NCBI GenBank assembly: GCA_031267135.1 | Contig: JAIRZQ010000153.1 | Location: 1 to 53,165 of the forward strand | Source: Prevotellaceae bacterium | GTDB lineage: Bacteria > Bacteroidota > Bacteroidia > Bacteroidales > UBA932 | Reading direction: 5' to 3' | DNA: 53,165 nt | Part shown: one piece after another, positions 10,152 through 42,846 of the stretch | How positions within the stretch are numbered: the stretch's first letter is position 1 | Layout: every line of letters begins with the position of its first letter | Position numbers and translations under genes: made by a program | Notes under the pieces: model-generated | Seen by the model: the letters and a program-made list of their open reading frames with translations, nothing else | The model's database searches: none | Told to the model about the DNA's origin: nothing

Positions 10152-10230
10152 AATTAACAATGAATAAATAACAATTAACAATTAACAATTAATAATTAAT
10201 AATTAATAATGAATAATTAACAATTAATTA
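10152..10230. repeat. 7-bp AT-rich tandem repeat (attaaca/attaata)
   Basis: Run of attaaca, attaata and atgaata units; a shorter run lies at 7597-7624. Confidence 0.8.
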
Positions 10231-14465: not shown

Positions 14466-14632
14466 GCAAGTTTGCCCGAGACTCCTGCAACCTGCGGCAG
14501 ACTTTCACACTCGGTAGGAAACGTTCCTGCAACCCTGCGGCAGGCTTTCATACTCGGTGTGAAACATTCCTGCAACCCTGCGGCAGGCTTTCACACTCGA
14601 TGCGAAACCATGCCTCAATGACGGTTGCGGGA
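14466..14632 (+). repeat. 42/43-bp degenerate tandem repeat related to 7803-7904
   Basis: Units cctgcaac(c)ctgcggcag(a/g)ctttca(c/t)actcg... begin at 14484, 14526 and 14569, preceded by a diverged copy at 14466. Confidence 0.85.
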
Positions 14633-21849: not shown

Positions 21850-24450
21850 TTATAATTCTCTTTCAACTTTTATTTTACACTCGGCAACCTGCTTGTTAGC
21901 CGGCGCTTTTTTATCTGGCTGTTTTCCGCCTATGTAAATGTTCATTGTTCCTGTTGCTGCTGTTTCGTCATTATCGACGCTATTGCGCACTGTCATTTGA
22001 GATGGTGCGAGCGTAAACTCAACATTTGCGCTTTCTCCCGCTTTTAGATGTATTCGCCTGAATCCCTGCAATGATCTTATCGGAGTTTTCCACAAACTAT
22101 TTTTTGGCAGCGAAACGTAAAGCTGTACAACTTCGTCGCCATCCATTTTGCCTGTGTTTTTAACTTCGGCGGTTATTTTTACCGTATTGCCTGCTTTGAT
22201 TGTTTGAGGCGCATTTGTAATTGAATATTCAAAAGTGGAAAAACTCAATCCGTACCCGAATTCGTAAAGCGGCGTTCCATTAAAATAGCGGTAAGTCTTA
22301 CCTTGCATATCGTAGTCGGTAAATTCGGGAATATCGTCGATGCTTTTGTAAAAAGTAACAGGCAACCGTCCTGCCGGATTGTAATCGCCGAACAGCACAT
22401 CTGCAATTGCTCTGCCTCCCTGCTGTCCCGGATACCATGCTTCGATTATTGCCGACATGGTTTCGTTTTCACGATTTATGGCGAGCGCGCTGCCGTTAAG
22501 CAAAACAAGAACCGAAGGTTTTTTGAGCTTATGTATTTCTTCGATAAGTTCTTTTTGTGTTGACGGCAATTCTATACTGGTGCGGTCGCCGCCGCTGAAG
22601 CCTTCGATATTAACAGGCATTTCTTCGCCTTCGAGCGAAGGACTCAATCCCATACACAATACAACGACATCCGAATTTCGTGCAAGTTCTATTGCTTCCT
22701 GTTTCATATCGGGATTGGGAGCAGACCATAGCAGCCGAGCCATTGCAAATTGCGTGTTTTGTTGAGAATATTTAACCTTAATATTATATGTTTCACCGGC
22801 TTTAAGTTCCATACTTTCCTGTTTTCTTTGCGGGTTATGTCTTGATTTTATATTCATCAGCAATGAATCGTTGATGTACAGTGCAAACGACTGCTGAGCT
22901 TCGGCTGCAAAAACATATTGTCTCGTTGTTTTTGGAACGAGAACTCCTGTCCATTCTGCCGAAAAGTCATCATAGTCTATACCTTCGGCAGGCGGGTTTT
23001 GTCCCCAAATGAAATCAACAGTTGCATCTGTTCTGTCAATTTGCCTGTCTTTTGAAGTATATATTGCTTGAAGTCCGTTTTTTGTCAATGAAGCATCCGT
23101 AAACAGGCAATTTGCGGGTATGGCTGTAAAGTACGGCAATCCCGGAGCAAGTTCGCAGCCCTGTGCAAACAGTACTTCCGCATTTGGCAATTTTTCGCGA
23201 ATGCCTGCCAGCGGCGTTACGTATGTCGTTGGGAAACCGTTATAATTTGCCAACAATACGTTGAAATCTTCGGCGTTTGAACCAATGACGGCTATTTTCT
23301 TTATATTTTTCGACAGAGGCAGTATGCCATCATTTTTTAACAAAACGATAGATTTGCGTGCTGCATCGAGCGATGATTCAACATTTTCTTCGCTTTCGAC
23401 AACACTGTATGGAATATCAGTGTATGGAACCTGCTGTTTTTCATCAAAAAATCCGAGTTTCATCATTGCCAGTAATATTCGCTTCACTGACACATCTATT
23501 TCGCTTTCGGTAATAAGTCCCTGCCGGACGGCTGAAACCAGAAAAGGATAAGTATTTCCGCAATTCTGGTCGGTGCCTGCTTTTACAGCCATTGCCGCCG
23601 CTTCGGCAGGCGTATTTACTGTTTCGTGATGTCCCTTGGCGTAAAAATCCATTACAGCCCAGCAGTCCGATACGATATATCCTTCGAATCCCCATTCGTT
23701 TCGCAGAAGATTTGACAGATATTCGTTGCCGCAGCACGGAAGTCCGTTAAGCCGCTGATATGCGCACATTACGCAATATACTTTTGCTTCCTGTACCACT
23801 CGTTTGAAGTGAGGAAGGTAAGTTTCCGCCATGTCATAATCGTTTGGCATGACGTCAAACGAATGTCTTATCGATTCGGGACCGCTGTGCACTGCAAAAT
23901 GTTTTGCGGTAGCAATTAATTTAAAGTACTTTTGGTCGTTTCCCTGCAATCCTTTTACGAAAGGTATGGCTAATTCAGCGGTTAAGTAAGGATCTTCGCC
24001 GTATGTTTCCATTCCGCGTCCCCAGCGCGGGTCGCGAAATATATTGATATTTGGCGTCCAGTATGTAAGTCCCATGTACTGCCCGAACTTGCCTCGATTT
24101 GCATAATCGTGATGTTTGGCGCGCGCTTCGTCCGATATTGAGTTTGCTATTGAAAACATTTTATCGGCATCCCACATAGCTGCTAATCCTATGGCTTGTG
24201 GAAATACGGTGGCGCGTCCCGACCGCGCGACTCCATGCAGACATTCGTTCCAAAAGTTATGGGCGGGAACATCAAGGCGGGGAACACCCGGACAGTCGTA
24301 ACGAAGCATGTTAACTTTTTCTTCGAGCGTCATTCGCGACAACAGATCATCTACTCGCGTTTCAAAGTCGAGCGATGTGTTTTTGTAAGGTTTTGTGCTG
24401 CACGATGCAAGCGATATGCAGAATGCAATAAACAGTATTTTTCCTTTCAT
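21850..24450 (-). CDS. GH3 beta-xylosidase/beta-glucosidase lipoprotein with PA14-like insert
   Basis: Lipobox LASCS; RVDDLLSRMTLEEKVNML; nucleophile region GYIVSDCWAV; PA14-like FIWGQNPPAEGIDYDDFSAEWTGVLVPKTTRQYVFAAEA; C-terminal Fn3-like domain. Confidence 0.93.
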   Translation of the reverse strand: MKGKILFIAFCISLASCSTKPYKNTSLDFETRVDDLLSRMTLEEKVNMLRYDCPGVPRLDVPAHNFWNECLHGVARSGRATVFPQAIGLAAMWDADKMFSIANSISDEARAKHHDYANRGKFGQYMGLTYWTPNINIFRDPRWGRGMETYGEDPYLTAELAIPFVKGLQGNDQKYFKLIATAKHFAVHSGPESIRHSFDVMPNDYDMAETYLPHFKRVVQEAKVYCVMCAYQRLNGLPCCGNEYLSNLLRNEWGFEGYIVSDCWAVMDFYAKGHHETVNTPAEAAAMAVKAGTDQNCGNTYPFLVSAVRQGLITESEIDVSVKRILLAMMKLGFFDEKQQVPYTDIPYSVVESEENVESSLDAARKSIVLLKNDGILPLSKNIKKIAVIGSNAEDFNVLLANYNGFPTTYVTPLAGIREKLPNAEVLFAQGCELAPGLPYFTAIPANCLFTDASLTKNGLQAIYTSKDRQIDRTDATVDFIWGQNPPAEGIDYDDFSAEWTGVLVPKTTRQYVFAAEAQQSFALYINDSLLMNIKSRHNPQRKQESMELKAGETYNIKVKYSQQNTQFAMARLLWSAPNPDMKQEAIELARNSDVVVLCMGLSPSLEGEEMPVNIEGFSGGDRTSIELPSTQKELIEEIHKLKKPSVLVLLNGSALAINRENETMSAIIEAWYPGQQGGRAIADVLFGDYNPAGRLPVTFYKSIDDIPEFTDYDMQGKTYRYFNGTPLYEFGYGLSFSTFEYSITNAPQTIKAGNTVKITAEVKNTGKMDGDEVVQLYVSLPKNSLWKTPIRSLQGFRRIHLKAGESANVEFTLAPSQMTVRNSVDNDETAATGTMNIYIGGKQPDKKAPANKQVAECKIKVEREL

Positions 24451-24515
24451 ATAAATTGATTATTTGATTTATTAAATTATTATACAGAAACCGAATCAAA
24501 CAAAGTTTCTACTCT

Positions 24516-24715
24516 AATAAGGCTCGGCATCTTATCTTAATAAGGCTTGTCATCTTATCCTGATAAGGCTTGTCATCTTATCCTGATAAGGCTCGACATC
24601 TTATCCTAATAAGGCTCGACATCTTATCCTAATAAGGCTTGTCATCTTATCCTGATAAGGTTCGACATCTTATCCTTATAAGGTTCGCCACCTTGCCCTT
24701 ATAAGGCTCGGCAGA
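24516..24715. repeat. 23-bp tandem array, about 8.5 units, each junction carrying a CTTAT-N4-ATAAG dyad
   Basis: Units begin at 24516, 24539, 24562, 24585, 24608, 24631, 24654, 24677 and 24700; consensus (g/a)ataaggct(t/c)g(t/a)catcttatcct. Confidence 0.97.
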
Positions 24716-24816
24716 CGATACATGTAAGTATCTACCTGCATGACATGCAAAGGATTGAAAGCCGGTATTTGTATAATTAAATATCATTTGCTTGAAATTG
24801 CATTTTATTTATCTGT

Positions 24817-25782
24817 TCAAACAGAAGTTCCTTCGATTGTTTTTATTGTATCATCTTCATTATACTGCAATTCCGTCACTTTTATGCTGCGAAGCCACGT
24901 CTTGCCGCCCGACGGTACGCTATCGTGATGGAAAAGATACCATTTTCCTTTCCATTCAATGATTGCATGGTGCGTTGTCCAGCCTGTTACGGGAGTCAAT
25001 ATAACGCCTTTGTAAGTAAAAGGACCGTATGGGCTGTCGCTTGTTGCATAGCACAGTCTGTGAGTATCGCCGGTAGAGTAGGAGAAGCAGTATTTTCCTT
25101 TGTACCTGTGCATCCACGATGCCTCGAAAAAGCGCCGCATGTTGTCGCTGTGAGCAACAGGCTTGCCGTGTTCGTCCAAAATGACAACCGGTTTCGGTTC
25201 TTCGGCAAACTGAAGCATGTCGTCGCTTAAACGGGCTACACGCGATGGTATGGCAGCTTCATTACCGGCAGGAAATTCCGCATTTTCGAGAGCTTTGTTA
25301 TTGCGATAGCGCTGCAGCTGTCCGCCCCACAAACCGCCGAAGTACATGTAGTAATTGCCGTTATCTTCGAGTACGCACGGGTCGATGCTGTAGCTTCCGC
25401 GAATCGGGTCGGATTGCGGAATAAAAGGACCTTCGGGCTTGTCGGACACAGCCACGCCTATGTGGAAAACATCATTTTTGTCTTTCATCGAAAAGTACAG
25501 ATAGTATTTGCCGTTTTTATACGCTGCATCGTTGTCCCATAACTGACGTCCAGCCCACGGAATGTCTTTTACGTCAAGAATCAAGCCGTGATCAATAACA
25601 TCGCTGTCAATATCGCTCATTGAAAGCGCGTGATAGTCTTTCATGTCGAAATGGTCGCCGTTATCGTTTTCGGGAATCCCGCTTTCGCGGTCGTGCGAAG
25701 GGTAAATGTAGAGCTTATTGTTGAAAATATGCACGGCAGGGTCAGCCATGTAATCGCTCGGGAATAAATATCTTGCTATCAT
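24817..25782 (-). CDS. GH43 glycosidase (arabinofuranosidase/xylosidase-type)
   Basis: YMADPAVHIFNNKLYIYPSHD, WDNDAAYKNGKYYLYFS, GSYSIDPCVLEDNGNYYMYFGG; no obvious signal peptide. Confidence 0.88.
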   Translation of the reverse strand: MIARYLFPSDYMADPAVHIFNNKLYIYPSHDRESGIPENDNGDHFDMKDYHALSMSDIDSDVIDHGLILDVKDIPWAGRQLWDNDAAYKNGKYYLYFSMKDKNDVFHIGVAVSDKPEGPFIPQSDPIRGSYSIDPCVLEDNGNYYMYFGGLWGGQLQRYRNNKALENAEFPAGNEAAIPSRVARLSDDMLQFAEEPKPVVILDEHGKPVAHSDNMRRFFEASWMHRYKGKYCFSYSTGDTHRLCYATSDSPYGPFTYKGVILTPVTGWTTHHAIIEWKGKWYLFHHDSVPSGGKTWLRSIKVTELQYNEDDTIKTIEGTSV

Positions 25783-25786
25783 AATC

Positions 25787-26917
25787 TTAATTTTGTTTTG
25801 TTAATTTTATTAATTCGCCTACAACGGGCTTGGGCTGATATTCGCGGTCGAAGAGCAGGGCGTAGTCCGTTCTTCCGTGAACAGGCCAGTCGTTGCGCCA
25901 CGAGTCTTTATCGGTAACGCCCCACAGTGTTACGCGGCTTACTTTGTCGTGATGTTTCAGAAACAGCCTGAAAAAGTCGATATATCTATTTTGCTGCTGC
26001 AGCGCTATTTCCGCAGGTATGCTGTCGGAATACGGGTTCAGTTCAGCCTTGAAGTCGAAGTTTGCCGAAACGTCTGCTCCCGTAAAGCCCCGAAAAGCCG
26101 GAAGAACGGTTAAGTCAAGTTCCGTTACCATAACCTTAACGCCTAAAGATGAAAATGCAAGCAAGCTTTTTTCAAACTCTTCTACAGTCGGGCTGTCCAT
26201 GTTCAAATGTCCCTGCATTCCTACCGCATCTATTCTAAGCCCTTTTTCCTGTATAGATTTTACCAATCCGACAATACCCTGACATTTAGCTTCGATGGCT
26301 GTGGAATAATCGTTGTAATACAGTTCCGCTTCGGGGTCGGCTTCGTGTGCAAACTGAAATGCAAGCGGAATAAAATCTTCACCGATTATCCTGTAGAATT
26401 TGCTTTGACGCCACGAGCCGTCGTCCATTATGGCTTCGTTGACAACATCCCAGCCTTTGATTCGCCCTCTGTATCGCGAAACTACGGTTGTAATGTGGCT
26501 GCGCATGCGTTCTATCAGCATTTCGCGCGAGACATCGTTGCCGTTTTCGTCGATAAAGAACCATTGCGGAGCCTGCGAATGCCAAACGAGGCAATGTCCC
26601 GTTATCCACATATTATTTGCTTCGCCGAAAGCAACGTATTCATCGGCTTCGTCGAAAAAGAATTTTCCTTCTTCGGGTTGCAGGTACATGCTTTTCATGC
26701 AGTTTTCGGGAACAATGGCGTTAAACTGTTCTGTTATGATTTGTACGCCAAGTGTGTCCAGTTCGAAAATCTGCAATGAGTTTAATGCCGTTCCTATTAA
26801 AAATTTACCGGCAAACGCCTTTGCCAGCGTGCTGTTTTCAACAGTTGATTTTTTACATGCCGTTAACGCGCAACAGCAAACAGCGGTTATCAGCAATGTT
26901 TTTTGTAATACTTTCAT
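25787..26917 (-). CDS. GH10 endo-1,4-beta-xylanase lipoprotein
   Basis: Lipobox CALTAC; acid/base WDVVNEAI; nucleophile MVTELDLTVL; WGVTDKDSWRND. Confidence 0.95.
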   Translation of the reverse strand: MKVLQKTLLITAVCCCALTACKKSTVENSTLAKAFAGKFLIGTALNSLQIFELDTLGVQIITEQFNAIVPENCMKSMYLQPEEGKFFFDEADEYVAFGEANNMWITGHCLVWHSQAPQWFFIDENGNDVSREMLIERMRSHITTVVSRYRGRIKGWDVVNEAIMDDGSWRQSKFYRIIGEDFIPLAFQFAHEADPEAELYYNDYSTAIEAKCQGIVGLVKSIQEKGLRIDAVGMQGHLNMDSPTVEEFEKSLLAFSSLGVKVMVTELDLTVLPAFRGFTGADVSANFDFKAELNPYSDSIPAEIALQQQNRYIDFFRLFLKHHDKVSRVTLWGVTDKDSWRNDWPVHGRTDYALLFDREYQPKPVVGELIKLTKQN

Positions 26918-26947
26918 TTTTATGTCTTTATTAATTTATTTACAATA

Positions 26948-28345
26948 TCATGCAAGGTTTCTGCTTTCTATTTCTCTGTTGATTTTATCAATTATTTCAT
27001 CGTCCAGTTCATACTTTGAAATAATAAACATTGCCAAAATCAGGAATAATGCAGGAATGATAACCATCAGCCACAAGATTCCCTGCAATGCCATTGGTGA
27101 TTGAGTTTGAACTTCGGGATTGAAATCGGTAAACGCAAGTATCAGTCCGGGAATTACGCCGCCAAGAGCAAATCCTGCCTTGAAGAAAATTCCGGTAAGC
27201 GCATTAACAACTCCCGAAATGCGCTTGCCTGATTTCCATTCTCCATACGAAATTACTTCTGGAACCAGCGCCCACATATATCCGGTAGCAACTATAATAC
27301 CTGTTGATTTCACAAATTGTGCTGCATAAATGAGCCATATCATTTCGCGAAGCGCCGGCACGACTGAAACCACATACAGCAAAGCCATACCTGCCAGCGA
27401 AATGCTTAAAAACAGGTAAAACATTTGCCGTTTGCCGATAGCGCGTTTTATCATTGGCACCAGAGGCAGGAAAATAAATGCAGGAACAGAACTTAATCCG
27501 TTGAAAACAGGCAATATGTCATCACGACCAATGTTGTAGCCGATATAATATGATGACGCTGTATTGCCTACTGCCATCAGTGCAAAAGCGGTAATGAAAA
27601 AGAAAGCGAGTATGCGAAGCGGACGATTGCGTATAAACTCGGTAAACAAATCCGAGTATTTCACGCTGTCGGTTTTATCTCTGTGCATCACCACGCGCTC
27701 TTTTGTCTGGGTGTAGCAGAAAATGAGCAAGCCAAATCCGACAATGGCATATACAGCCATTATCACAAACCATGTTCCCGAAGCGGCAGGCTTTTTCCAG
27801 TCATTATCGGGTGCAAACATTTGTATCAGGAAGGGAACGGCAAACTGAACTGCCAAACCTCCCATATTTGCCATAACCATGCGGGTTGATGTAAGAATGG
27901 TAATTTCGTTTGTATCGCGCGTGAGCGAAGCGTTTAATGCGCCGTAAGGCACATTTACCAGCGTATAGCAAAGCGAAAGCGTAACGTATGTTATATAGGC
28001 ATACCACAGTTGTCCCGAAAAGCCATCCCAGAACGACAGGATCATTAGTCCGCTCAGGGGAATGCCGCCGAGTATCAGGTAGGCGCGATATTTTCCGAGC
28101 TTCGGATTGCGCTTGTCAACGAAAGCGCCTACAAACGGATCCCAGAGTACATCAACCAGACGCACAATAAGGAACATAACAGCGGCAGAAGCCGGAGCAA
28201 TGTTGAATACGTTTGTATAGTAAAATAAAAGATAGGTTGATACCGTTTGGTATATAAGATTTTGAGCCAAATCGCCCGATCCAAAGCCGATGCGTTGCGC
28301 CCACGATAATTTATAAAATCCTTTTGCTTCGTTTAATGTATTCAT
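26948..28345 (-). CDS. MFS/GPH-family sugar:cation symporter (XynP/MelB type)
   Basis: 12-TM profile; LVDVLWDPFVGAFVDKRNPKLGKYRAYLILGGIPL; GYMWALVPEVISYGEWKSGKRISGVVNALTGIFFKAGFALGG. Confidence 0.92.
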   Translation of the reverse strand: MNTLNEAKGFYKLSWAQRIGFGSGDLAQNLIYQTVSTYLLFYYTNVFNIAPASAAVMFLIVRLVDVLWDPFVGAFVDKRNPKLGKYRAYLILGGIPLSGLMILSFWDGFSGQLWYAYITYVTLSLCYTLVNVPYGALNASLTRDTNEITILTSTRMVMANMGGLAVQFAVPFLIQMFAPDNDWKKPAASGTWFVIMAVYAIVGFGLLIFCYTQTKERVVMHRDKTDSVKYSDLFTEFIRNRPLRILAFFFITAFALMAVGNTASSYYIGYNIGRDDILPVFNGLSSVPAFIFLPLVPMIKRAIGKRQMFYLFLSISLAGMALLYVVSVVPALREMIWLIYAAQFVKSTGIIVATGYMWALVPEVISYGEWKSGKRISGVVNALTGIFFKAGFALGGVIPGLILAFTDFNPEVQTQSPMALQGILWLMVIIPALFLILAMFIISKYELDDEIIDKINREIESRNLA

Positions 28346-28398
28346 AAATCCTTTACTGTTTTATTATTTTCTATTCTATTATTTCCTTAATTATGTCT

Positions 28399-30324
28399 TT
28401 ATTCCGTCCGGAAAGGCGATGCAGGAAATCCTTCTTTGTTTTTCAGATTTGCATCATCGGGATTATCCGCCCATGCATAACGCACTTTGACGGGATTTTT
28501 CACCGAATCATTCCATACCTTTACTTTGTCTTTTGCTATCACCACAGCATTTGCCCATTCATACACGCCATCTGCGCCGGCAATGGCAAATCCGTGCAGG
28601 TCGAGGTTTGTATATATCCCGGAGCCTGTCGAAGTAAATGTAAGGATGATACTGTTATTTTTTATTTCCATGCTTTTGTACAGTGGACCACAGCTGACTG
28701 CCGATTCGCCATAGGCAACCCGTTGCGCTTCCAGTGCCAGACGGCGCCCGAGTTCTTTCTTATTGAGCGGATGAATATCGTTCCATTCTCCTATGTCTAT
28801 TGTAACAGCCATGCCCGTGTTTGGAATATCCAGCGCTTTTCGCTGCACGTTGCGCAGTGCAGCCCAGTCGCTTTCTATCGGCGCTTTCCGCGCTTTCATA
28901 AAATTGGGTAACTGTGCAAATATAAACGGCAATTGAGGATTATTCCATTTGTCCCGCCAGTCTTTAATAAGATCAGGAAAAAGGCTTGCATATTCTTCCA
29001 CTCGCTCGGTATTGGATTCTCCCTGATACCATATAACGCCTTTTATCGAAAAGTTCAGCAAGGGCGCTATCATGCCGTTGTATAAGCCTAAGGGCTTGTA
29101 ATGAAAAGTAGTTGTTGGCTGCATTGGAGTTGACAGTTTTGCTCCGATTTTATATTTCCATTCACCTGTAAGGTCAATGCTTTCATCACCGACGATGACT
29201 TTATACGGCTTTTCTTCTACAAAACCTCCGTATTTGCCATCGCATACAACCCGTATTGCAATAACGTTTTTGCCTTCTTTTAGCAGGTCTGACTTAAAGG
29301 GATAAATTCGAGGCGGATACTGATATGTAATATTGCCGACATAAGCGCCGTTGATGAAAGAAGAATCGCCATCGACTATGCAGCCAAGCCTGAGTATGCC
29401 ATCCTTTCCGGTCATCGACTTCGGAACATCAATTTCCTTGCGGAACCATATAACGCCGTATTCCAAGTCAATATCCTTTTCCATCCAGTAACCCGGCAGT
29501 GAGATTTCATTCCAGTCGGAATCATCTGCGTCGGCTTTATGCCATTTGGATAATCCTGCGTCATTCTCATTTAATATCGCAGTTCTGTTTATGGTGTTTG
29601 CTCTGTCGAGTTTCATTGTGTTTTCAACATAGGCATTATCAGCGCATTTTTCTATTTCCTTGATATGTTCGGGATAATGTTTTAACGTTTCAATGCTGAC
29701 CCATGCCTCAACAGGCGACCCGCCGACGCTTGAGTTAATAAGCCCTACGGGAACGCGGTATTTGTCGTATAGATTTTGGGCAAAGAAGTATGCCGTAGCT
29801 GAGATGGTCATAATATTTGCAGGCGTTGCAGCTCGCCATTCGCTTTTCCACATTCCATCCGACAAATCTTCATTCGGATGTTGAAAATTATAATGTAATG
29901 GCGTTTTGTAATGCCGTATGTACGGGTTATATATTTGTTTTATTTCGTCTGCAAACATGTCTGTTACTTCGTATATTTGCATTTCCATGTTCGACTGTCC
30001 GGAACAAAGCCATACATCGCCTACGAGAATGTTGTTTACCGTGATTGAGTTGCTTGCTTCTATTGTCATTGTGTAAGCGGTATTTCCTGCTTTCTGTTCG
30101 GGAATGACTGTTTGCCAGTTTCCGTTTTCATCTGCCGAGCATTTGTATTCGCCGCCATTGAATGATATTGTTATATTTTCATTTGGAGATGCCCATCCCC
30201 ATATTTTCAAAGGCACATCGCGCTGAAGCACCATGCCATCCGATATTAATTTCGGCAGTCGTACCTGCCCTGATAGGCAGGTTGTAAAAAGGAATAAAAT
30301 TAATAGCGCTGTTGAATGTTTCAT
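28399..30324 (-). CDS. SASA-type (sialate O-acetylesterase-like) carbohydrate esterase
   Basis: VRLPKLISDGMVLQRDVPLKIWGWASP; VWLCSGQSNMEMQ; GVIWYQGESNTER; DWNDIHP-like IGEWNDIHPLNKKELGRRLAL. Start revised to the ATG at 30324 before MKHSTALLILFLFTTCLSGQ. Confidence 0.9.
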   Translation of the reverse strand: MKHSTALLILFLFTTCLSGQVRLPKLISDGMVLQRDVPLKIWGWASPNENITISFNGGEYKCSADENGNWQTVIPEQKAGNTAYTMTIEASNSITVNNILVGDVWLCSGQSNMEMQIYEVTDMFADEIKQIYNPYIRHYKTPLHYNFQHPNEDLSDGMWKSEWRAATPANIMTISATAYFFAQNLYDKYRVPVGLINSSVGGSPVEAWVSIETLKHYPEHIKEIEKCADNAYVENTMKLDRANTINRTAILNENDAGLSKWHKADADDSDWNEISLPGYWMEKDIDLEYGVIWFRKEIDVPKSMTGKDGILRLGCIVDGDSSFINGAYVGNITYQYPPRIYPFKSDLLKEGKNVIAIRVVCDGKYGGFVEEKPYKVIVGDESIDLTGEWKYKIGAKLSTPMQPTTTFHYKPLGLYNGMIAPLLNFSIKGVIWYQGESNTERVEEYASLFPDLIKDWRDKWNNPQLPFIFAQLPNFMKARKAPIESDWAALRNVQRKALDIPNTGMAVTIDIGEWNDIHPLNKKELGRRLALEAQRVAYGESAVSCGPLYKSMEIKNNSIILTFTSTGSGIYTNLDLHGFAIAGADGVYEWANAVVIAKDKVKVWNDSVKNPVKVRYAWADNPDDANLKNKEGFPASPFRTE

Positions 30325-30328
30325 ATTA

Positions 30329-31882
30329 TTATTGTTTTGTATAAGTAAAGAAATCAATATCTATATATCCTCCTGCTGCTTTTGTGGCATAGTTGTAAAT
30401 AGCAAAACGATTGCCCATGAAGTGTTCAAGATTGTATGTCATGTGAAATTCCGCACCCGATTTCGTCCAATTTTCCGGCGCGGTGAGGCATTTTTCGTCT
30501 GTACTGTAATAAAAATTAGCCTTGTCGGTATTAAAATTGCAATCCACGCGCAGATAGACGATATTTTCCGTCAATTCTGCTCTCGCTTTTTCGCTGCCCC
30601 TGTCAGTCATCACAATAAATTTCTTATCGCCTTCCATTACTACCGAAATAAGTCCGGGTTCGGAACAGAAAACCCCAAATCCTGCCATATCTCCATCTTG
30701 CATTTGCGATATATCCATGCCAACCGCTGCACTGGACCGTTCTCCTTCGGTGCGCTGCGACAGAGTGTTGCGGGCTTCAAATATGCTTTTTACTGTTTTG
30801 CCCGTCTTGAGCCTCATATAACCGGAACGCTCGCCGAGCGTCCACAAATTGTTATCTGGATTGTGATTCCATTGCCAATTCAAGGCTAATTTATCCGTAT
30901 CGAAGTTGTCGCTTGCAACCATATGCATTTCGGGATAACCCTGTACGGGCTTTTCCATTACTTTGGGAGTTTTGCCGTTGCTGTCGCCGAGCAGTGGCCA
31001 GCCGTCTTCCCAATGGCATGGCAACAGCACCGGAACGCGCCCCACGGCATTGTGGTCTTGAAACAGAAAGCCGAACCAGCGTCCATCTTCGGTATCAACA
31101 ATGCATCCCTGTGCTACGCCTCTTCCGTACAGGTCGAGTGTGTCCGAAAGAATGGTTTTCGATTCGTAATAACCATTAATGCTGTCGGAGCGAAAACAAA
31201 GCTGTGTACGTATTCCTCCGTGTTGCCAGTCCCACCATATTATAAATATATAGTATTTTCTACTGTATTTGCACAGGTGTGTTCCTTCAAACAGCCCTTT
31301 GTAACCCAGTTCTTCGCCGTTGATGATGCTTGCGTGCAGTCCATCCTCTTTTATGGCTGTCAGGTCGCTTTTCAATTCTGTTATCTTTATTTGCCCTTCT
31401 ACATAAGACAGATATACTCTTCCGTCATCATCAAACAATAGAGATGAGTCGTGATAGTTGCGGTCGAATACAGCTATTTTTTTCCATTTGCCTGTCGGGT
31501 CGTCGGTTGTGTAAATGTATGATTTTTGAGGATTGTTGGTAGCGAAAAACACGTAAAACCTGCCGTTGTGATAGCGCAACGACGATGCCCACTGTCCTTT
31601 GCCGTACACATTGCCCTCTTCGAGGTCGTAGAGCGGACTGTCTTTTATCTCATCAAAAACGTAACTGACTATTTCCCAGTTTACGAGGTCTTTCGACCGC
31701 ATGATGGGCGCGCCCGGCATAAGGTGCATGGTGGTGCTTATCATGTAGAAATCGCTGCCAACGCGGATAACGTCCGGGTCGGGAACGTCGGCATAAATGA
31801 CAGGATTTGTAAAAAACCTGTCGCCGGTCTCTGTTTGCGACGACAGCGACAGCGCAAGCATCAATAAAATGCATGCGAGCAT
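30329..31882 (-). CDS. GH43 glycosidase with C-terminal beta-sandwich domain
   Basis: NPVIYADVPDPDVIRVGSDFYMISTTMHLMPGAPIMRSKDLVNWEIVSY; start revised to MLACILLMLALSLSSQ (31882), because the upstream extension crosses a 23-bp repeat array. Confidence 0.9.
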   Translation of the reverse strand: MLACILLMLALSLSSQTETGDRFFTNPVIYADVPDPDVIRVGSDFYMISTTMHLMPGAPIMRSKDLVNWEIVSYVFDEIKDSPLYDLEEGNVYGKGQWASSLRYHNGRFYVFFATNNPQKSYIYTTDDPTGKWKKIAVFDRNYHDSSLLFDDDGRVYLSYVEGQIKITELKSDLTAIKEDGLHASIINGEELGYKGLFEGTHLCKYSRKYYIFIIWWDWQHGGIRTQLCFRSDSINGYYESKTILSDTLDLYGRGVAQGCIVDTEDGRWFGFLFQDHNAVGRVPVLLPCHWEDGWPLLGDSNGKTPKVMEKPVQGYPEMHMVASDNFDTDKLALNWQWNHNPDNNLWTLGERSGYMRLKTGKTVKSIFEARNTLSQRTEGERSSAAVGMDISQMQDGDMAGFGVFCSEPGLISVVMEGDKKFIVMTDRGSEKARAELTENIVYLRVDCNFNTDKANFYYSTDEKCLTAPENWTKSGAEFHMTYNLEHFMGNRFAIYNYATKAAGGYIDIDFFTYTKQ

Positions 31883-31910
31883 ACCGTATTTTATGCAAGG
31901 CGCACAAGTA

Positions 31911-32007
31911 AGGCACGACCTCTCCGTCCGACGAGGCACGACCTCTCCGCTCGGCAAGGCGCTACCTCTCCGTCCGACGAGGCACAACCTCTCTGCACGG
32001 AGAGGCG
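31911..32007. repeat. 23-bp tandem array, 4+ units (aggcacgacctctccgtccgacg)
   Basis: Units begin at 31911, 31934, 31957 and 31980, with a partial unit at 32003. Confidence 0.95.
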
Positions 32008-32049
32008 TGTATTGCCATTGTACATGATTACCTGGCATATATCTGTCGC

Positions 32050-32790
32050 TTACTGTACCGTTAATGTCTTGTCGAATACTGTCGAGCGCGGTTCTTTCAA
32101 TACTTTGCCGCCTCCGGATATGAATTGCGTTGTTACTTCAAGACTGTACGTTCCTGCTGCCAGTTGCGGAATTATTACAATCAATTCCGACGGATTATTG
32201 ACGACGATGTCCGAAGCGTCAACCTTTGTCCGTTCCTGTGTATCGGTATTAATGAAATATACTCCGTTAACCTCGTCAGCGCCTTCAATTTTTATTTTGT
32301 GTCCTGCTATTTTCAGGTTGCGGTTTGGCGTGAGGATGTCATTGATGCTGCCTGTTTTGACGTCGGTAACATGAGCAACCGCAACGCCCGTTTCGGCTAT
32401 TCCGAGAATATCAACGCCCACCATTTCCAGCTCTTTACGCAGCGTAGCGCCCTGGTGAAACTCGAACAGCACGGTGTGCTTTTGCGGGTCAAACTTTTCG
32501 TTAGGGTTGTCGAACACGCCGCGAATGTGTACGCTTGCCGTGAACCAGCCCGTATTGATTGAAAATCCATCGCATAGCCGATAGCCCATTTCTTTGAGAA
32601 AAAGGTTGACGGCGTGTTCCATAGCCGCTGCCGACACGTCTGCGCCGCCGCGCGCTACTGCCGATTCGCAAATATCGTTTACGTTAAGCGAGCGTTCCGA
32701 AATGACGCGTGCGATATAATCATTCGGATTATCCTGTGTAAGGAGGTTGTCGTACAACCATGCCTTGATTTTGTGTAATACTGTTGCCAT
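32050..32790 (-). CDS. HU-like DNA-binding protein with C-terminal DUF4469/Ig-like domain
   Basis: MATVLHKIKAWLYDNLLTQDNPNDYIARVISERSLNVNDICESAVARGGADVSAAAMEHAVNLFLKEMGYRLCDGFSINTGWF; C-terminal NRNLKIAGHKIKIEG...VDASDIVVNNPSELIVIIPQLAAGTYSLEVTTQF. Confidence 0.8.
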   Translation of the reverse strand: MATVLHKIKAWLYDNLLTQDNPNDYIARVISERSLNVNDICESAVARGGADVSAAAMEHAVNLFLKEMGYRLCDGFSINTGWFTASVHIRGVFDNPNEKFDPQKHTVLFEFHQGATLRKELEMVGVDILGIAETGVAVAHVTDVKTGSINDILTPNRNLKIAGHKIKIEGADEVNGVYFINTDTQERTKVDASDIVVNNPSELIVIIPQLAAGTYSLEVTTQFISGGGKVLKEPRSTVFDKTLTVQ

Positions 32791-32845
32791 TGTATTTTAA
32801 TTTAAATATTTGATAAATTTGATTTGTGATTTAAATATTTAATGA

Positions 32846-33215
32846 TTATGTCTCGTAGAGGTATTCTCCGTTCGGCGTAGCGTTCCCGCTACGTCGAAGA
32901 TGCGACTGTCTATATTCCCAACCTAACAGGTTTTGAAACCTGTTAGATTTAGCTGTATCCACGCTGAACAATGTAGTCCCGAACGGGACGCTATTTTCAT
33001 AACCGCAGGTAAGCGTAGCGTAACCTGTGGATGATATACAGACTTCCATTTCGCGCGGAGCAGAGGTAGTTTTCCATATCATTGTCGGCAACCCGCGCAA
33101 CATGCAGGATGTGTTTCTTTGTCCCCAAGCTACGCCTGCGGCTTGCATGGGGTTATGCATATTCTGTCCCTTTCGGGACATCTTTTTGTTTACTGCTGTT
33201 TTATTTATCATTTAC
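32846..33215 (-). repeat. Intergenic repeat element (MINKTAVNKK-type box plus palindrome)
   Basis: Minus-strand atgataaataaaacagcagtaaacaaaaagatgtcccgaaagggacagaat matches boxes at 33400-33465 (-) and 7686-7750 (+); contains the palindrome at 32920-32950 and a CGTAGCG-ttcc-CGCTACG hairpin (32876-32893). Confidence 0.7.
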
Positions 33216-33339
33216 GGTTGAATAAATTATTAATTATTATGCGTTCCGCAGGAACGAAATGTTGGTAAAAAAAAAACCGTCCTCCGTGCCTTTTGCACGA
33301 AGCATTGCCGCCGACCTGACACACCGCAGCCAACCCGCG

Positions 33340-33465
33340 CAAAATGCAATCCATCATTGTAAACCTAACAGGTTTCAAAAACCTGTTAGGTTTTGTTTCT
33401 TTTTCTACAGACATTCTGTCCCTGACTGGATATTTTATATTTACTGTTATTTTATTCACCATTTA
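33340..33465 (-). repeat. Intergenic repeat element (MVNKITVN-type box plus palindrome)
   Basis: Minus-strand atggtgaataaaataacagtaaatataaaatatccagtcagggacagaatgtctgtagaaa then AAACCTAACAGGTTT palindrome; same order as 7686-7790. Confidence 0.8.
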
Positions 33466-33538
33466 CTATTGCTTATTATTTCCGGATTGCTTCGCTGCAT
33501 TCGCAATGACGTTTCTTTACAAACTTTATAAACATTTT

Positions 33539-36040
33539 TCACTCTTCACTCTTTAAAAGACTGTTTACCGCATTCACCAGATAAATGTAGTTAGGCGCAA
33601 GCGGTATTACATATTCATTTTCACTCCAGTGGAAAGGATAATCATCCCTGTTTTCCGGATAGTCGGGTTTCAATATGCGTATTCCGGGTACAATGCCGCC
33701 CGGTATAAACGTAAAGTCTGCACGGTTGTTGCCGTAAGCAATCTTTTTAGGCTGTGCGCCAACACCCGACACAAACGACAGGTTGTGCACAGGATGACAT
33801 CCGTAGAGATAGTTTAACGCCCTGTATATGTATTCTGGATTAATCAGGTCGGGAAACAGGCGGTACAAGTTATAATTGAAGTTTGCCATGCTTATTATGT
33901 TTCCGTTAGCCGCCCATCCCGATGGACTTATCATTACGCCGAAAGGACTTATTGAATCAACTGCATTCAGCCGTTCGCCGTAGGCTTTTACCGCAGATCT
34001 TAACTTTTCTTTCAGTTCGTCGTCCATATATGGCGCTATTTGCGCCAGTATAAACATATTGCGTTCGATATTTTCTTCAAGTTCGGGTAATATTTCATCT
34101 ATACGCGCCTTGTATTCTGCTTTTCCTGTTGTTTTCCAAAGTTCGACGGCGGCAAGCAACTCGGTTTGAATACCAAAGCCGCGAACAAAGAAAGGCTGAT
34201 TTTGCTCTTGCTCTGCCGGACGGCTGTGTTCGTCTTTCCATATATATTGCGCCACATCGAGACATTCTGCGGCAAATGCACTGTTGTAATCTTTCAATAC
34301 GCGGGCGGAGGCAGCCAACGAAATGGCTGTATTATAATTCAGATATGCAGACCTGTTTGTGAATGCCCAGCGGTCGTCGGGAGTTCCGCTTGTACGCCCG
34401 TCTGCTTGCAGACTGTCCAAATGCGGATTGTAAATCAGATTGTCGGTTTTTGTTAAGGCGTCTCCAAGATGCCGATACTGATAAAGATGCGATTCGTTGA
34501 TACCCGGTATGGCATAACCTATGGATTTTACCTGCGCTGCAAGTTGAAGTGCGCCGTGTTCAATCTGCTGAAGCATGTCGGGCTTGCCGTCGGGGACGTG
34601 GATATCTACATGGCGCGTCTTCTGGCTGACGGTTGTTTCGTCACGGTCGATGCCGAATGTTTCGTAAGCATTGACCAATGACTGCACAGTGCTTTGCTGC
34701 GACGGCGTTTGAATGTCAAAGTCGCCAGCGTCGAACCAGCCGCCCACGTTCAAGCCGGGAATATGCTGCATTGGTTTGTACTTGTTGTCGGTGCTGCTTC
34801 CCTGCCGCCATCCGTCCCAGTGTATGCGGTTGAGGGGCGCCTGCAATGCATCGTCCAGGTGCGCCGCGCCGTGCCATACGCGGTAGGCTTCGCGCACAAA
34901 CATGTGATCCATCTGCACCGGCATGAACACGTCGAGCGTGGGAAACCATGCCCGCTCATACACGTCGGCGGCGATGGGGAACGGTGCTGTACGCTGACCG
35001 CCGTATTCGAGTTCATAGATGCCCGCTTCTGTAACTGATGAAAAGTCGAATTGCAGATAGTTATACCTTAAATACATTCCCCATGATTTCGGTTTTCCCG
35101 AAAGCGCCTTTGTACGGCTGCCGTCGTCATTGACTTTCCACAGCGAAACGATTGAAAGCGCTTTATCATTTTTATCGAGTTCCACCACGGCAAGTTTTGT
35201 TTGAGAAGGATGATAACCTGCCTGCGAATATGAAATAACAGGAGTGCGTATCCAGTCGGCAACAGATTCGCCGGTAATAAACCATTCTGCTATTTTGCCT
35301 GCTTTGCCAGATGGCAGCAGTGTGCGCACAACGAATGTTCCGTTTTGCTGTTTATTTCGTCCATCGAACAGCATCAAATTGTCGCCTTCAACAAGGCGGA
35401 TTGAGAGGTGTTTATAGGGATCGTCAGGCGCTATTTCTATTGTTTTGCCTGTTGCCATTGGCGTAGGCTCAACCTGCCCGTTGATGAATGTCATAAAATC
35501 GGCAGGCGAGGTGGGAAAAAGACCGTATTTGTTATCCATAATGTAGGATGTTCCCCAGAACACTGGCGGAAAAAATTCAAGATTCAATCCTGCTACGCCT
35601 GTTAAGGCTTCGGGCAGTGGTTTGTCGACCGTTACGCCGAAGAGCAGTCCGTTGCCTTTTGCTTCTGCTGTGAGGGTGTATTGAAAATCATAGGCGGCAA
35701 AGTTCATGGTTATTTCCATGCGCTGATTTTCTCTGTCCACCTTTTTGTCTACGAATTTGGCGATGGGATCCCATTGTCCTGGTGTAGGGTTCAGGCGCAC
35801 GTCTCCGTTGGTAGCGGTGCGTATGCCGTGATGGATTATTTCTACCGCGCTGATTTTTGAGTCGTCAAACAGGTTGTCGTACATATTGTTGAAGACAAGA
35901 ATATTGAATCCGTGTTTTTCAAAATATAGCGAATCGTTAAGCGTAAGGTCTTTCGATGCGCCGCCGCCGTGGCAGCCCGACAGCCACAGACAACCGCAGG
36001 TTGCCGCAAGGCAAATGATAAAAAGGGTAAATTTTTTCAT
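33539..36040 (-). CDS. GH9 family glycosidase lipoprotein
   Basis: Lipobox WLSGC; VGGWFDAGDFDIQTPSQQ; C-terminal FHWSENEYVIPLAPNYIYLVNAV; GCHPVHNLSFVSGVGAQP. Confidence 0.9.
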   Translation of the reverse strand: MKKFTLFIICLAATCGCLWLSGCHGGGASKDLTLNDSLYFEKHGFNILVFNNMYDNLFDDSKISAVEIIHHGIRTATNGDVRLNPTPGQWDPIAKFVDKKVDRENQRMEITMNFAAYDFQYTLTAEAKGNGLLFGVTVDKPLPEALTGVAGLNLEFFPPVFWGTSYIMDNKYGLFPTSPADFMTFINGQVEPTPMATGKTIEIAPDDPYKHLSIRLVEGDNLMLFDGRNKQQNGTFVVRTLLPSGKAGKIAEWFITGESVADWIRTPVISYSQAGYHPSQTKLAVVELDKNDKALSIVSLWKVNDDGSRTKALSGKPKSWGMYLRYNYLQFDFSSVTEAGIYELEYGGQRTAPFPIAADVYERAWFPTLDVFMPVQMDHMFVREAYRVWHGAAHLDDALQAPLNRIHWDGWRQGSSTDNKYKPMQHIPGLNVGGWFDAGDFDIQTPSQQSTVQSLVNAYETFGIDRDETTVSQKTRHVDIHVPDGKPDMLQQIEHGALQLAAQVKSIGYAIPGINESHLYQYRHLGDALTKTDNLIYNPHLDSLQADGRTSGTPDDRWAFTNRSAYLNYNTAISLAASARVLKDYNSAFAAECLDVAQYIWKDEHSRPAEQEQNQPFFVRGFGIQTELLAAVELWKTTGKAEYKARIDEILPELEENIERNMFILAQIAPYMDDELKEKLRSAVKAYGERLNAVDSISPFGVMISPSGWAANGNIISMANFNYNLYRLFPDLINPEYIYRALNYLYGCHPVHNLSFVSGVGAQPKKIAYGNNRADFTFIPGGIVPGIRILKPDYPENRDDYPFHWSENEYVIPLAPNYIYLVNAVNSLLKSEE

Positions 36041-36191
36041 ATTACTTTATTATTTTTGTTTGTTGGGGCGAAAAACTTTTCGCTCTTACTTGTTTGTTTT
36101 TTTTTCTCGGTATTCCGTAGTCAATATCAAGTATTACATATATTATCTATCTTAATCGTTAACTACTAATTACTTTTCATTTTTCAATTCT

Positions 36192-37541
36192 TCATTGCTC
36201 AAATCTTATCCAGTCTATTTCAACAGCGCCTGCACCATCCTGCATGATAAATAAATCCTGTATTCCTGTCGGAACATTTGAAAGATTATATATTGTTTCT
36301 GACCATTGTGCATTTTTCGGTATATTGACTTCGGCTATTAACGTTCCGTTTTGTCCGCCTGTATGTATCTGTAATTTAGCGCCGGTAGATGAGGATGCAT
36401 TGACTTTTACCGTTTTCAGTTTGTCGTTTCCGAAATTAACACTGTTGTATTGTACATAAGCGCTGTTTTCGTTCAGTATGGTTTTCCATCCTTTAAAAGT
36501 GTCTGTCGTATCGATATAATCAATTCTTACTCCCGTACTGCTGATTTTGCTGTAGCGGTCTATCTGTATTTCTTTGTACGCATCTGTTATGCCAACTCCG
36601 CGTAGAGTAGGAATCACCTTTTGAATTGTGCCGTCGGGATTGAACCGGAGAGAATCAATGCGTATAGAGCGGTTTTTGTCGAACTTGGGCGACAAGTCGT
36701 TGTGATGATAGAACAGATACCACTGTCCTTTGTATTCAACGATAGAATGATGGTTTGTCCAGCATCCGGTGGACGATTCGTCCATAATTTCGCCTTTCAT
36801 CTCAAAAGGTCCAAGCGGACTGTCGCCCATGGCGTAGGCAAGCAGTTCCGTAGTGTTGTTCTTTACCCAGGGGAAAGTGAAGTAGTATTTGCCGTTGCGC
36901 TCGAATACAAAAGGACCTTCTTTCATGCCCTTATCCGGCGCCGGCAATTCCTGTATTATCACCGGTTCGGACGCCAGTTCCAGCATATTGTCTGCCAGCT
37001 TTGCGCCGAGCAGCCCGCCAAAGCCTGCCCAATAGATATAAGCCTGCCCGTCTTTGTCGATGAGCGTACACGGGTCGATGCCGTAAGTGCCTTTTATCGG
37101 TTCCGGTTGCGGTACGAATGGTCCGTAAGGCTTGTCGGCTACGGCAACGCCTGTCATCATGCCGCGTCCCACGAGCGTATCCTTCACCGGTGCGGGAAAG
37201 TAGAAATAGTATTTGCCGTTGCGCTCGATGCAGTCGGGCGCCCACAGGCTGTAGCCTTCCGGATTGACCCAGGGGATATTGTCCTGACTTACAATAACGC
37301 CGTGGTCTGTCCAGTCGGTCAGGTTTTCCGAAGAAAACACGTGGTAATCAGCCATGCAAAACCATGTTTTAAGATGTTCAACAGGACTTGGAATATCGTG
37401 TGAAGGATAAACATAAACTTTTCCTTCAAATACTCGTGCCGTAGGGTCGGCAGTAAACTGGTCTCTGATAATCGGGTTTTGAGCGAATACTGCGCTGCTT
37501 AATAAACCAACAGTTAACAGTAGTGTAATTCTTTTTTTCAT
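36192..37541 (-). CDS. GH43 glycosidase with C-terminal CBM6
   Basis: FTADPTARVFEGKVYVYPSHDIPSP, WAPDCIERNGKYYFYFP, GTYGIDPCTLIDKDGQAYIYWAGFGG; CBM6-like end LFIMQDGAGAVEIDWIRFEQ. Confidence 0.93.
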   Translation of the reverse strand: MKKRITLLLTVGLLSSAVFAQNPIIRDQFTADPTARVFEGKVYVYPSHDIPSPVEHLKTWFCMADYHVFSSENLTDWTDHGVIVSQDNIPWVNPEGYSLWAPDCIERNGKYYFYFPAPVKDTLVGRGMMTGVAVADKPYGPFVPQPEPIKGTYGIDPCTLIDKDGQAYIYWAGFGGLLGAKLADNMLELASEPVIIQELPAPDKGMKEGPFVFERNGKYYFTFPWVKNNTTELLAYAMGDSPLGPFEMKGEIMDESSTGCWTNHHSIVEYKGQWYLFYHHNDLSPKFDKNRSIRIDSLRFNPDGTIQKVIPTLRGVGITDAYKEIQIDRYSKISSTGVRIDYIDTTDTFKGWKTILNENSAYVQYNSVNFGNDKLKTVKVNASSSTGAKLQIHTGGQNGTLIAEVNIPKNAQWSETIYNLSNVPTGIQDLFIMQDGAGAVEIDWIRFEQ

Positions 37542-37634
37542 AATATGTTGTATTTTTTATATTTGTATTCTGTAATTCAGTATCAAGTATTGCATATTAA
37601 ATCATTAAATAATAAATAATTCTTATTATAAAAA

Positions 37635-37658
37635 AAGGGCTGCCGCATAGCAGCCCTT
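37635..37658 (-). terminator. Rho-independent terminator/attenuator after susD
   Basis: On -: AAGGGCTGC-TATGCG-GCAGCCCTT followed by TTTTT; between susD and the GH43-CBM6 gene. Confidence 0.8.
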
Positions 37659-37731
37659 CTCCAAATAAAACTTTTTTTAATAACCAATGTAAAACAAAAC
37701 CATATCAGTTTTATTCTTGTTTTTTAAAGTA

Positions 37732-39690
37732 TTAATTATATCCAGGGTTTTGATAAGCAGCTTTTTCATCTGCGGTTGCTTCCATACCATCTATCTGAAC
37801 TTGAGGAATAGGACGCAAATAATGATACTTCTCAATGGTACGAGTTATTGTTGTCGGCGGCACAGGACCATTTGTGTCCGCATAATAAAAAAGCGTGCCT
37901 GTTTCAACAATAGTATAGGTAGCGGCAAATTCAGCCCACTTTTGAGTACGAACTAAATCATACCAGCGATAACCTTCGCCAAACAATTCGCGTGAACGTT
38001 CCATCAAAATATAGTTGATGTCTATGTTCTGTGGCGTAGCGGCAACCATATCGGCGCTGTAGTCATCCGTTTTTGCGGCGTTTTCCGCATTGTTGAACGA
38101 CCATTTGCCGGCGCGTGCGCGTAACACGTTCACACATTCCAGTGTGCTAAAGCCTGCCTCTTCGATAGCGCCTTTCACTGCGGCTTCGGCTGCTATGAGA
38201 TAAAGTTCAGAGAATTTTGCAATGTTCCACGGGCGATGGCTGGCGGCACCTGAGTTACCTAGTCCAGTGCCGTTATCCTCACGATAGGGTCCGATTTTCC
38301 AGAGGCTGGGCGACATTACCCTGCGTGTAGCGTTCGGCGTTATTACATAATCGGCTCTACCAGGTATTTCGCCTGCAGCTATAAGATTTGCACCAGCGCC
38401 GCTAGGATAGGTAATCTGGCTCGCCAGCGATTCGTCAGGCAGGAATGTTAATATCAACCCGCTCTGTGGAACTGTCATGCCGTTGGCATTGGTTACCGTT
38501 GGAGCGCTAATACCACCTTTCTGCCAATTGCCGCGATAGGTAGTAACAAAAGTACCGTCGTAGCGTGAATCTTTTTCCTTTTCGGCAAAGGTATTATTGA
38601 TAACTTCATGAGGAACAGCCAAGGCAGTCCATGGTCGTCCCATATTCTGACATATTTCACGCTGAAGCGACGCTACGCCTCCGCTACGGAGCGTTGTATA
38701 GTTCCATGTCGTCATCCAGCAGGCAAAGTTTTCCCTTTGACTGCCACCAGCGTAACCTAACCCGCCTTCGTTATATTTTTCACTTAACCAATTATGGTCA
38801 GCATAAAGCAATATTTCTTTATTGCGGTCATTCGATCCTAAGTTCACTTGATAGAAGTTATCCAACAAACCAAATGGTCCTGGGTTTTTAATGGCTTCCA
38901 CCGCTATGTCGTAAGCCTGCTGGAAATACCATTTAGCATCGTGTCCGTCTGGGTCGGTTCTTGCACATTCGGGGTAGGTAGGAATGTCGTTAGGATTTTC
39001 CAACCACCATCCGTAAGTCAAATAAGCCTTTGCAAGGTACAGACGTGCTACCGTTTTGGTCAATCCTCCTATTACACGCCCTGTTTCGGGCAAATCATTT
39101 ATTGCAGTGAGCAAATCAGGGAAAATGGCTTCAGTATAAACTTCAGGCACAGTATTGCGTACGGAAGTACGCGAAGGAGTAACATTGAACATCAGCTTAC
39201 CTGATCCTAAGTCCAGCGGTACGCCGCCAAAGGTTTGCACTAAAAGGAAATAGTCGAAAGCGCGGAAAAAACGAGCTTCGGCAATCAGTGCGTCAGAGAG
39301 TCCTACCCCTGCAGCATTTTCAATGACGCCGCTGGCAGTATTGATGTAAGCGAAGACAGTATTCCACACTACGTCGCTACGGCTATTGGTGGGCTGTAGC
39401 ACCGCACCTGACATATCATGTGGCAAAAAATTACCGTTGTTAATAGGCCCGTAGGTGTACTCGTCTGTACCTACAACACAGGATCCGTAGTAATAGCCAT
39501 GCCCATACAAATCGCGCAGGTGTGCATACAGGGCGGTCAGTCCTCCGTTTACACCTTCCGGCGTTTTGAAATATTCCGGCGTAAACGAGACACGCGGTTG
39601 TTCTTCCAGCAGATAGCCGCAAGACGTTATTGCGAGGAACAGCGTTAATAACAATGTTCCAATAAATGTTTTTATGCTTTTATTTTTCAT
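37732..39690 (-). CDS. susD: SusD/RagB-family glycan-binding lipoprotein
   Basis: Lipobox AITSC; EQPRVSFTPEYFKTPEGVNGGLTALYAHLRDLYG; C-terminal YHYLRPIPQVQID...YQNPGYN. Confidence 0.95.
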   Translation of the reverse strand: MKNKSIKTFIGTLLLTLFLAITSCGYLLEEQPRVSFTPEYFKTPEGVNGGLTALYAHLRDLYGHGYYYGSCVVGTDEYTYGPINNGNFLPHDMSGAVLQPTNSRSDVVWNTVFAYINTASGVIENAAGVGLSDALIAEARFFRAFDYFLLVQTFGGVPLDLGSGKLMFNVTPSRTSVRNTVPEVYTEAIFPDLLTAINDLPETGRVIGGLTKTVARLYLAKAYLTYGWWLENPNDIPTYPECARTDPDGHDAKWYFQQAYDIAVEAIKNPGPFGLLDNFYQVNLGSNDRNKEILLYADHNWLSEKYNEGGLGYAGGSQRENFACWMTTWNYTTLRSGGVASLQREICQNMGRPWTALAVPHEVINNTFAEKEKDSRYDGTFVTTYRGNWQKGGISAPTVTNANGMTVPQSGLILTFLPDESLASQITYPSGAGANLIAAGEIPGRADYVITPNATRRVMSPSLWKIGPYREDNGTGLGNSGAASHRPWNIAKFSELYLIAAEAAVKGAIEEAGFSTLECVNVLRARAGKWSFNNAENAAKTDDYSADMVAATPQNIDINYILMERSRELFGEGYRWYDLVRTQKWAEFAATYTIVETGTLFYYADTNGPVPPTTITRTIEKYHYLRPIPQVQIDGMEATADEKAAYQNPGYN

Positions 39691-39729
39691 GATAATACTT
39701 TTTTATACAGTTTTTATTATTCATATTAC

Positions 39730-42700: not shown

Positions 42701-42846
42701 AAAGGATCATTGTTGCCCGTTACCTGTCCTTTGACTGTTATTCCTCCTGTTTGAGCATACAAACACGAAGGAATCAAAAATAACATGCAGGCAACTACTC
42801 TTAGTAGTATCTTGAATCCTGCTTTTTTTGATTTGATTAAATCCAT
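39730..42846 (-). CDS. susC: SusC/RagA-family TonB-dependent receptor
   Basis: Carboxypeptidase-regulatory-like N-terminus (VKGQVTGNNDPLGGVTVLVQGTGTYAMTDDNGNYSI), plug VVIGYGTQRKEAVTGSVASI, DVLKDASATAIYGARGANGVIIITT, C-terminal WLFGINLTF. Confidence 0.97.
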   Translation of the reverse strand: MDLIKSKKAGFKILLRVVACMLFLIPSCLYAQTGGITVKGQVTGNNDPLGGVTVLVQGTGTYAMTDDNGNYSIVAPNQNSVLTFSFIGYTTVNETIGTRSIINVAMEEEVQQLEQTVVIGYGTQRKEAVTGSVASIGGESIREVAAANIAQALQGRIAGIEMTQTNSQPGAEMQIRIRGQRSLTANNDPMIVLDGIPYPGSLGDINQNDIKSIDVLKDASATAIYGARGANGVIIITTNKGTMGQKAVVTYNGYVGVKTAIPYPMMSGPKFLTMRELAGVYSGTSADEKATTNTDWQDLFYRTGISHSHDVGISGGSEKGTYNFGLGYYSEDGVIPTQNYSRISLRGTIDQQIGKYFRFGVTTNNSYTMSNGMQIGMYGILNSSPLTGPYPTDANGNLKERNDLIVQGDAQYILTKEAIESLEENDKWVNQSKNFGTYNNIFGEVKIPWIEGLKYKLNLGLNLRMSDGGSYTGVGVNSSTLDNPSSASVSRSFMTNWAVENLLTYDRTFAEKHQVNVVGLFSSEQTHIHNSYISARNIPADFLLYYNLGQGPAEDININSDYQGYQESALISWMGRIMYSYDGRYMASVAFRSDASSRLAPGHQWHTYPAISLGWNIHKEKFMENVSFINSLKLRAGYGETSNQSVNPYATLGALSNRNYNFGTNYQTGYYVSLLPNPNLGWEFSETWNFGLDFSLLKNRLHGTIEYYIVNTHDLLMSLNLPATSGVGSYMANIGQTQNKGFELSLNGTILNNYNGWTWDAGINLYTNSNKIVSLASGATRDEYNSWFVGYPIDVLYTYEMLGLWNESDPDYQYIQFLEGSTLASAGDIKIKYRGDYNTDGSPSRPFGADDRVIRKMDPDFQGGFNTRVAYKGFDISIIGAFKSGGTLISTLYGSSGYLNQLTGRRGQVDVDFWTPENTGAKYPRPGGLPAAAEGPRHGDLLNLFDASYLKIRTITLGYNFEQKWIKDAGISRLRVYATVQNPFVLFSPFYNETGIDPEPNSYGNQNQAVSAYQSRLAVIGTNAPQTRTWLFGINLTF

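Follow-up and report, generated by a model that had tools for sequence, protein, structure and literature searches.

A 23-bp palindromic tandem array in a xylan utilization operon is probably an orphan of arrays paired with HU-like genes in Bacteroidales

A tandem array of 23-bp palindromic units (array 1) is located in a xylan PUL of a Prevotellaceae bacterium, on the 53,165-bp contig JAIRZQ010000153.1 of assembly GCA_031267135.1 (the whole contig is referred to as the window). The object of interest proved to be a pair consisting of an HU-like gene and an array, of which array 1 is probably an orphan. This pair represents what looks like a previously unreported class, found throughout the Bacteroidales, of tandem 22- or 23-bp palindromic units beside genes that encode HU-like DNA-packaging proteins. 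Relatives place the genome within the Prevotellaceae, among MAGs of probable termite-gut origin. We assign a probability of about 0.5 to the reading that array 1 is an orphan of these HU-paired arrays and that the arrays are putative landing sites for HU-like proteins, read by shape and spacing.

RESULTS

Array 1 occupies positions 24514..24710 on the (−) strand. It is intergenic, flanked by the GH43 gene (24817..25782, (−)), which is transcriptionally upstream, and by the GH3 beta-glycosidase gene (21850..24450, (−)), which is transcriptionally downstream. Tandem Repeats Finder gave a period of 23 with 8.6 copies, 88% matches, and zero indels, in agreement with the ~8.5 units and exact 23-bp step described in an earlier note on this DNA. 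For the intergenic region, the tandem score was 132, whereas none of 200 shuffles exceeded 12. On the operon strand, 9-bp linkers (ATGTCGAGC) join CTTAT-N4-ATAAG dyads. The units are arranged head-to-tail and include a higher-order 69-bp duplication. CRISPR was ruled out, here as in the earlier note, because there are no unique spacers between the units. The same note correctly placed the array upstream of and close to the GH3 start (24450), but the gap is 63 bp by the present count and not 66 bp.

The CTTAT-N4-ATAAG dyad is unbroken in seven of the eight full units. In units 1–7, both arms are exact, and none of the five variable columns falls within the 10 arm columns (hypergeometric p ~0.04). 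In unit 8, one arm is broken (CTTGC); unit 9 peters out. Taken alone, the 5-bp dyad of the consensus was marginal when compared with shuffled units (p 0.10–0.12), and the CTG variant of the unit, with 6-bp arms, gave p 0.026. The exact unit occurs at no second place in the 2.6-Mb draft genome of the organism, and tandem CTTAT/ATAAG was found in none of 10 congeners. A single unit, cGATACATGTAAGTATCt (24716..24733, (+)), adjoins array 1 and is identical at 16 of 18 positions to the dyad GGATACATGTAAGTATCC, which comes from an array beside another HU gene (G000:C90, locus L263).

The remaining xylan PUL (25787..42846, (−)) comprises GH10, an MFS transporter, a CE esterase, GH43_C2, an HU-like gene, GH9-like, GH43-CBM6, SusD, and SusC, accompanied by a divergent HTCS regulator. 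Array 1 is intercistronic and co-directional with the PUL genes, and is not located at the SusC/HTCS promoter. Several dyads 63 bp upstream of a start codon could be a cluster of operators through which a PUL transcription factor controls GH3; the earlier note had named a dyad-binding protein as one option. However, array 1 was missing from the orthologous GH43-GH3 junction in all six congeners from which this junction was recovered, and its motif is found nowhere else in the genome. Arrays of this kind also adjoin HU-like genes in many contexts. Since array 1 is absent from the junction of the congeners and its sequence is single in the genome, we regard a GH3 operator as extremely improbable. 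The GH43-GH3 junction itself seems to accept inserts. In G007 (L034/L074), a CGTC-type REP pair is inserted at the site of array 1, and the junction of G005 carries a different hairpin, ACCTAACAGG...CCTGTTAGGT.

A second array of the same period is present in the operon of array 1. Array 2 (31911..32007, (−)) consists of ~4 units of 23 bp, which on the operon strand read GAGG-TCGTG-CCTC followed by GTCGGACGGA. It starts 43 bp past the stop codon of the HU-like gene (32050..32790, (−)), which encodes a 246-residue protein with the domains PF14848 (HU-DNA_bdg) and PF14734 (DUF4469) and has a solved homologue, 4fmr. The sequences of the two arrays differ, and the period is 23 in both; in a preset comparison, their units agreed at 14 of 23 positions (p 0.001–0.002). 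Array 2 has the features of the class described below (period, adjacent HU gene), except for dyad strength. In the congeners G007 and G008, the HU gene of the xylan PUL is also directly followed by a 23-bp array, of unrelated sequence. Other dyads of HU-linked arrays are GTCAAAG-ACC-CTTTGAC in G002, TTACG-ATGAA-CGTAA in G008, and GATTAGA-ACATC-TCTAATC in G003.

HU-like genes are paired with arrays of fixed period, this period is tied to the clade of the protein, and the dyads are retained despite the private sequence of each array. PF14848 was searched in 61 relatives, and the DNA past each stop codon was scanned with periods of 19–26 allowed. All 46 clear arrays found downstream of HU genes had a period of 22 or 23. 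Among genes with a clear array, the period was 23 in 26/26 HU-DUF4469 genes, while short HU-HIG genes (PF18291) had a period of 22 in 15/20 and 23 in 5/20. As a control in the organism's own genome, 16 of 688 other genes had any such array (periods 21–23), and some of these arrays bear HU remnants. An array was present at five of the six HU genes of this genome, compared to 11 of 688 others (p 2e-8). In other families, scanned with periods of 15–30, a downstream array of period 23 was found at 10 of 16 DUF4469 genes. HU-HIG genes of other families have dyad arrays of period 22, mostly upstream of the gene; this placement was seen in the families of G118 and G111 and in one clade within the genus. 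Order-wide searches of Bacteroidales found up to 18 HU-HIG and up to five HU-DUF4469 genes per genome.

The best stem per unit in the HU-linked arrays exceeded that of shuffled units (combined p 8e-16). Retention of the dyad, which the earlier note described for array 1, is supported at the level of the class, but array 1 alone gives p ~0.1. The arms change completely from one array to another (GTCAAAG/CTTTGAC, ATTAGA/TCTAAT, CATCTTGA/TCAAGATG, TTCTGAA/TTCAGAA, and others), and what is retained is their complementarity and the 22/23-bp period. On the tree of HU proteins, the period requires three changes, compared to a mean of 14.4 for shuffled labels. In one HU clade, the arms TACATACGTATGTA are constant, while one member has a step of 22 and its sisters have 23. 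Array similarity correlates with the identity of the HU proteins (Mantel p 5e-4); inheritance alone could explain why similar arrays accompany similar proteins.

A different explanation is that array 1 acts as RNA. Intercistronic stems in the operon transcript would stabilize the mRNA or direct its processing, thereby fixing the level of GH3 relative to the upstream genes, and at HU genes the arrays would be 3'-UTR structures, possibly HU-bound in the manner of naRNA4. Array 1 lies between co-directional cistrons and folds well as RNA (z −3.4), and Escherichia coli HU binds REP325/naRNA4 RNA (PMC6907758). However, the opposite strand folds comparably (z −3.8), and no Rfam family, including the structured tandem RNAs, matched above the gathering score in the window. 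Selection for RNA stems on the coding strand should produce more G.T than A.C mismatches. In the stems of the HU-linked arrays, we counted 34 G.T and 37 A.C mismatches; these numbers are about equal, so there is no sign of selection on RNA, and the RNA hairpin selection put forward in the earlier note is not borne out. A 3'-UTR role is also at odds with the many HU-HIG arrays upstream of their gene. Overall, the RNA reading appears unlikely.

The arrays outlive or escape their HU gene, as can be seen from HU remnants at arrays lacking an HU gene and from a dispersed element. HU-less arrays at L191 and L210 are directly preceded by the C-terminal remnants of HU proteins (the last 23 and 19 amino acid residues, respectively), and those at L172 and L165 by longer HU fragments. 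The element, ~260 bp and intergenic, occurs in at least nine copies in the organism's own genome (L063:8780-9040 and at least eight more) and contains a 22-bp array, ATTTTCATTTAGGAGAAAATTT; one of its copies is the array upstream of the HU-HIG gene G000:C97. The element is reminiscent of a REP-like family that surrounds an HU gene.

Neither an HU gene nor a remnant adjoining array 1 was found by tblastn, and the closest HU gene, a member of this operon, lies at a distance of 7.3 kb; array 1 is therefore called an orphan by resemblance only. In a 50-way search, its unit matched the HU arrays of the genus no better than chance (p 0.43). When 148 relatives were searched for sister arrays by motif (AGGCNYGNCNYCT at 23-bp steps), mostly chance matches were returned, since sequence is not the conserved property. 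On the strength of its period of 23, its dyad, the presence of an HU gene in its operon, and the 14/23 agreement with array 2, array 1 rather likely belongs to the HU-linked dyad-array class.

Alternatively, array 1 may be a neutral minisatellite, expanded by slippage from a quasi-palindrome that arose by chance, with neither a function nor a tie to HU. It is species-specific, being missing in the congeners, its 69-bp duplication is consistent with such growth, and its dyad alone is marginal. In addition, the genome holds further tandem arrays that have no dyads, mostly with periods of 21 or 42. Against this stand the period of exactly 23 in an operon that also holds an HU gene and array 2, the agreement between the units of the two arrays, the sparing of the arms in units 1–7, and the clearly non-random character of the class as a whole. 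We consider a neutral origin doubtful, if slightly less so than a role as RNA.

Arrays with periods of 21 and 42 are set apart from the class, as dyads are rare among them and no HU neighbor was detected for any. Related intergenic arrays of 42/43 bp, not linked to HU, were seen at positions 14483-14608 of the window and at L070:5754-5909; they alternate two dyads, TTTCACAC-CGA-GTGTGAAA and CCTGC...GCAGG. Strong 21–23-bp dyad arrays also occur near xylanase loci where no HU gene was detected, at L101:8623-8758 (Tannerella), L123:5861-5923 (Bacteroides sp. 51), L113:9130-9201 (B. heparinolyticus), and L088:5725-5954 (a Treponema MAG). Among short tandem repeats in the Bacteroidales DNA examined, a period of 7 is the most frequent, and heptamer runs (AATTAAC)n are found in the window at 7596-7626 and 10152-10227.

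DISCUSSION

HU proteins recognize cruciform and kinked DNA through its structure, and the E. coli protein binds both cruciforms and hairpins (PMC6907758). Together with the tie of HU to REP325/naRNA4, this makes recognition of the dyads by their shape, at a fixed step, the simplest mechanism that we infer for the HU-like proteins. An array would be the cognate DNA landing site of an HU-like dimer, which would recognize a palindrome or an extruded cruciform and the fixed center-to-center spacing instead of the base sequence. The protein may then assemble regularly along the array, beside its own gene, with a putative role in organizing or regulating the chromosome locally. On this view, array 1, which shares its operon with an HU gene and array 2, would serve as a secondary landing array or be a relic of one, and GH3 would be affected, if at all, as a by-product of the nucleoprotein patch. 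The arms, at 5–9 bp, are short for cruciform extrusion, which counts against this reading.

More tentatively, the HU-like gene and its array may form a two-part, self-addressing unit. Each paralogue would have a private landing array with dyads read by shape and a 22/23-bp step set by its clade, so that the sequence could drift freely with the architecture locked. Arrays that shed their gene, or spread without it, would provide many orthogonal landing pads, some of them in polysaccharide-utilization operons.

Several known systems share some of these features. In Porphyromonas gingivalis, the BrickBuilt MITE consists of 19 dispersed copies of a single sequence, with a leader, a tail, and IS5-like terminal inverted repeats (TIRs) (Klein et al. 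2015, PMC4596501). Like the arrays described here, it has 23-nt tandem units without spacers, is intergenic in a member of the Bacteroidales, and is predicted to fold. In contrast, HU-linked arrays are each private in sequence and lack TIRs, and as a class they are tied to HU-like genes. Insertion of a BrickBuilt- or REP-like mobile minisatellite into the GH43-GH3 gap would account for the shared unit length and would fit both the inserts in this gap in G007 and G005 and the dispersed 22-bp array element of the genome. However, array 1 is single-copy, no inverted repeats were found at its ends, and the BrickBuilt TIRs (GAGACCTTTGCA) had no match near it. Array 1 was accordingly rejected as a BrickBuilt MITE, and a mobile insertion of this general type is very improbable.

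In E. coli, an HU-family protein is likewise tied to tandem palindromic repeats (REP325/naRNA4, PMC6907758), but REP325 does not adjoin the HU genes; it is one locus that acts via RNA, and it has neither a gene-specific unit nor a fixed 22/23-bp step. The GTAG/CGTC REPs with their RAYT transposases (PMC3733652) are similar in that palindromes flank a gene and dispersed copies without the gene exist. HU-linked arrays differ from them in having an HU-like gene in place of a transposase, no GTAG/CGTC tag, and head-to-tail units of fixed period. The HU gene–array pair also resembles partition loci in that the gene for a DNA-binding protein adjoins its own repeat sites. In such loci, the protein gene stands beside tandem or palindromic sites, as with ParR and the parC iterons or ParB and parS. 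Unlike partition loci, the HU-array pairs show no ATPase or motor gene and occur several times per chromosome, within metabolic operons.

In 2017, the Aravind group reportedly named HU-HIG in a survey of HU/IHF clades. Among open-access sources, we found no literature on HU-HIG, on DUF4469, or on tandem repeats adjoining HU genes; as far as this literature shows, HU-HIG and HU-DUF4469 have no known function. Pairing with HU-like genes accounts for a group of intergenic minisatellites that one would otherwise dismiss as noise. A gene-linked array with a clade-specific step offers a convenient substrate for binding assays, footprinting, and structural studies of HU-HIG and HU-DUF4469. The class would be a rare case of conserved DNA architecture without conserved sequence, and the HU-array pairs are a plausible route to orthogonal landmarks in the nucleoid.
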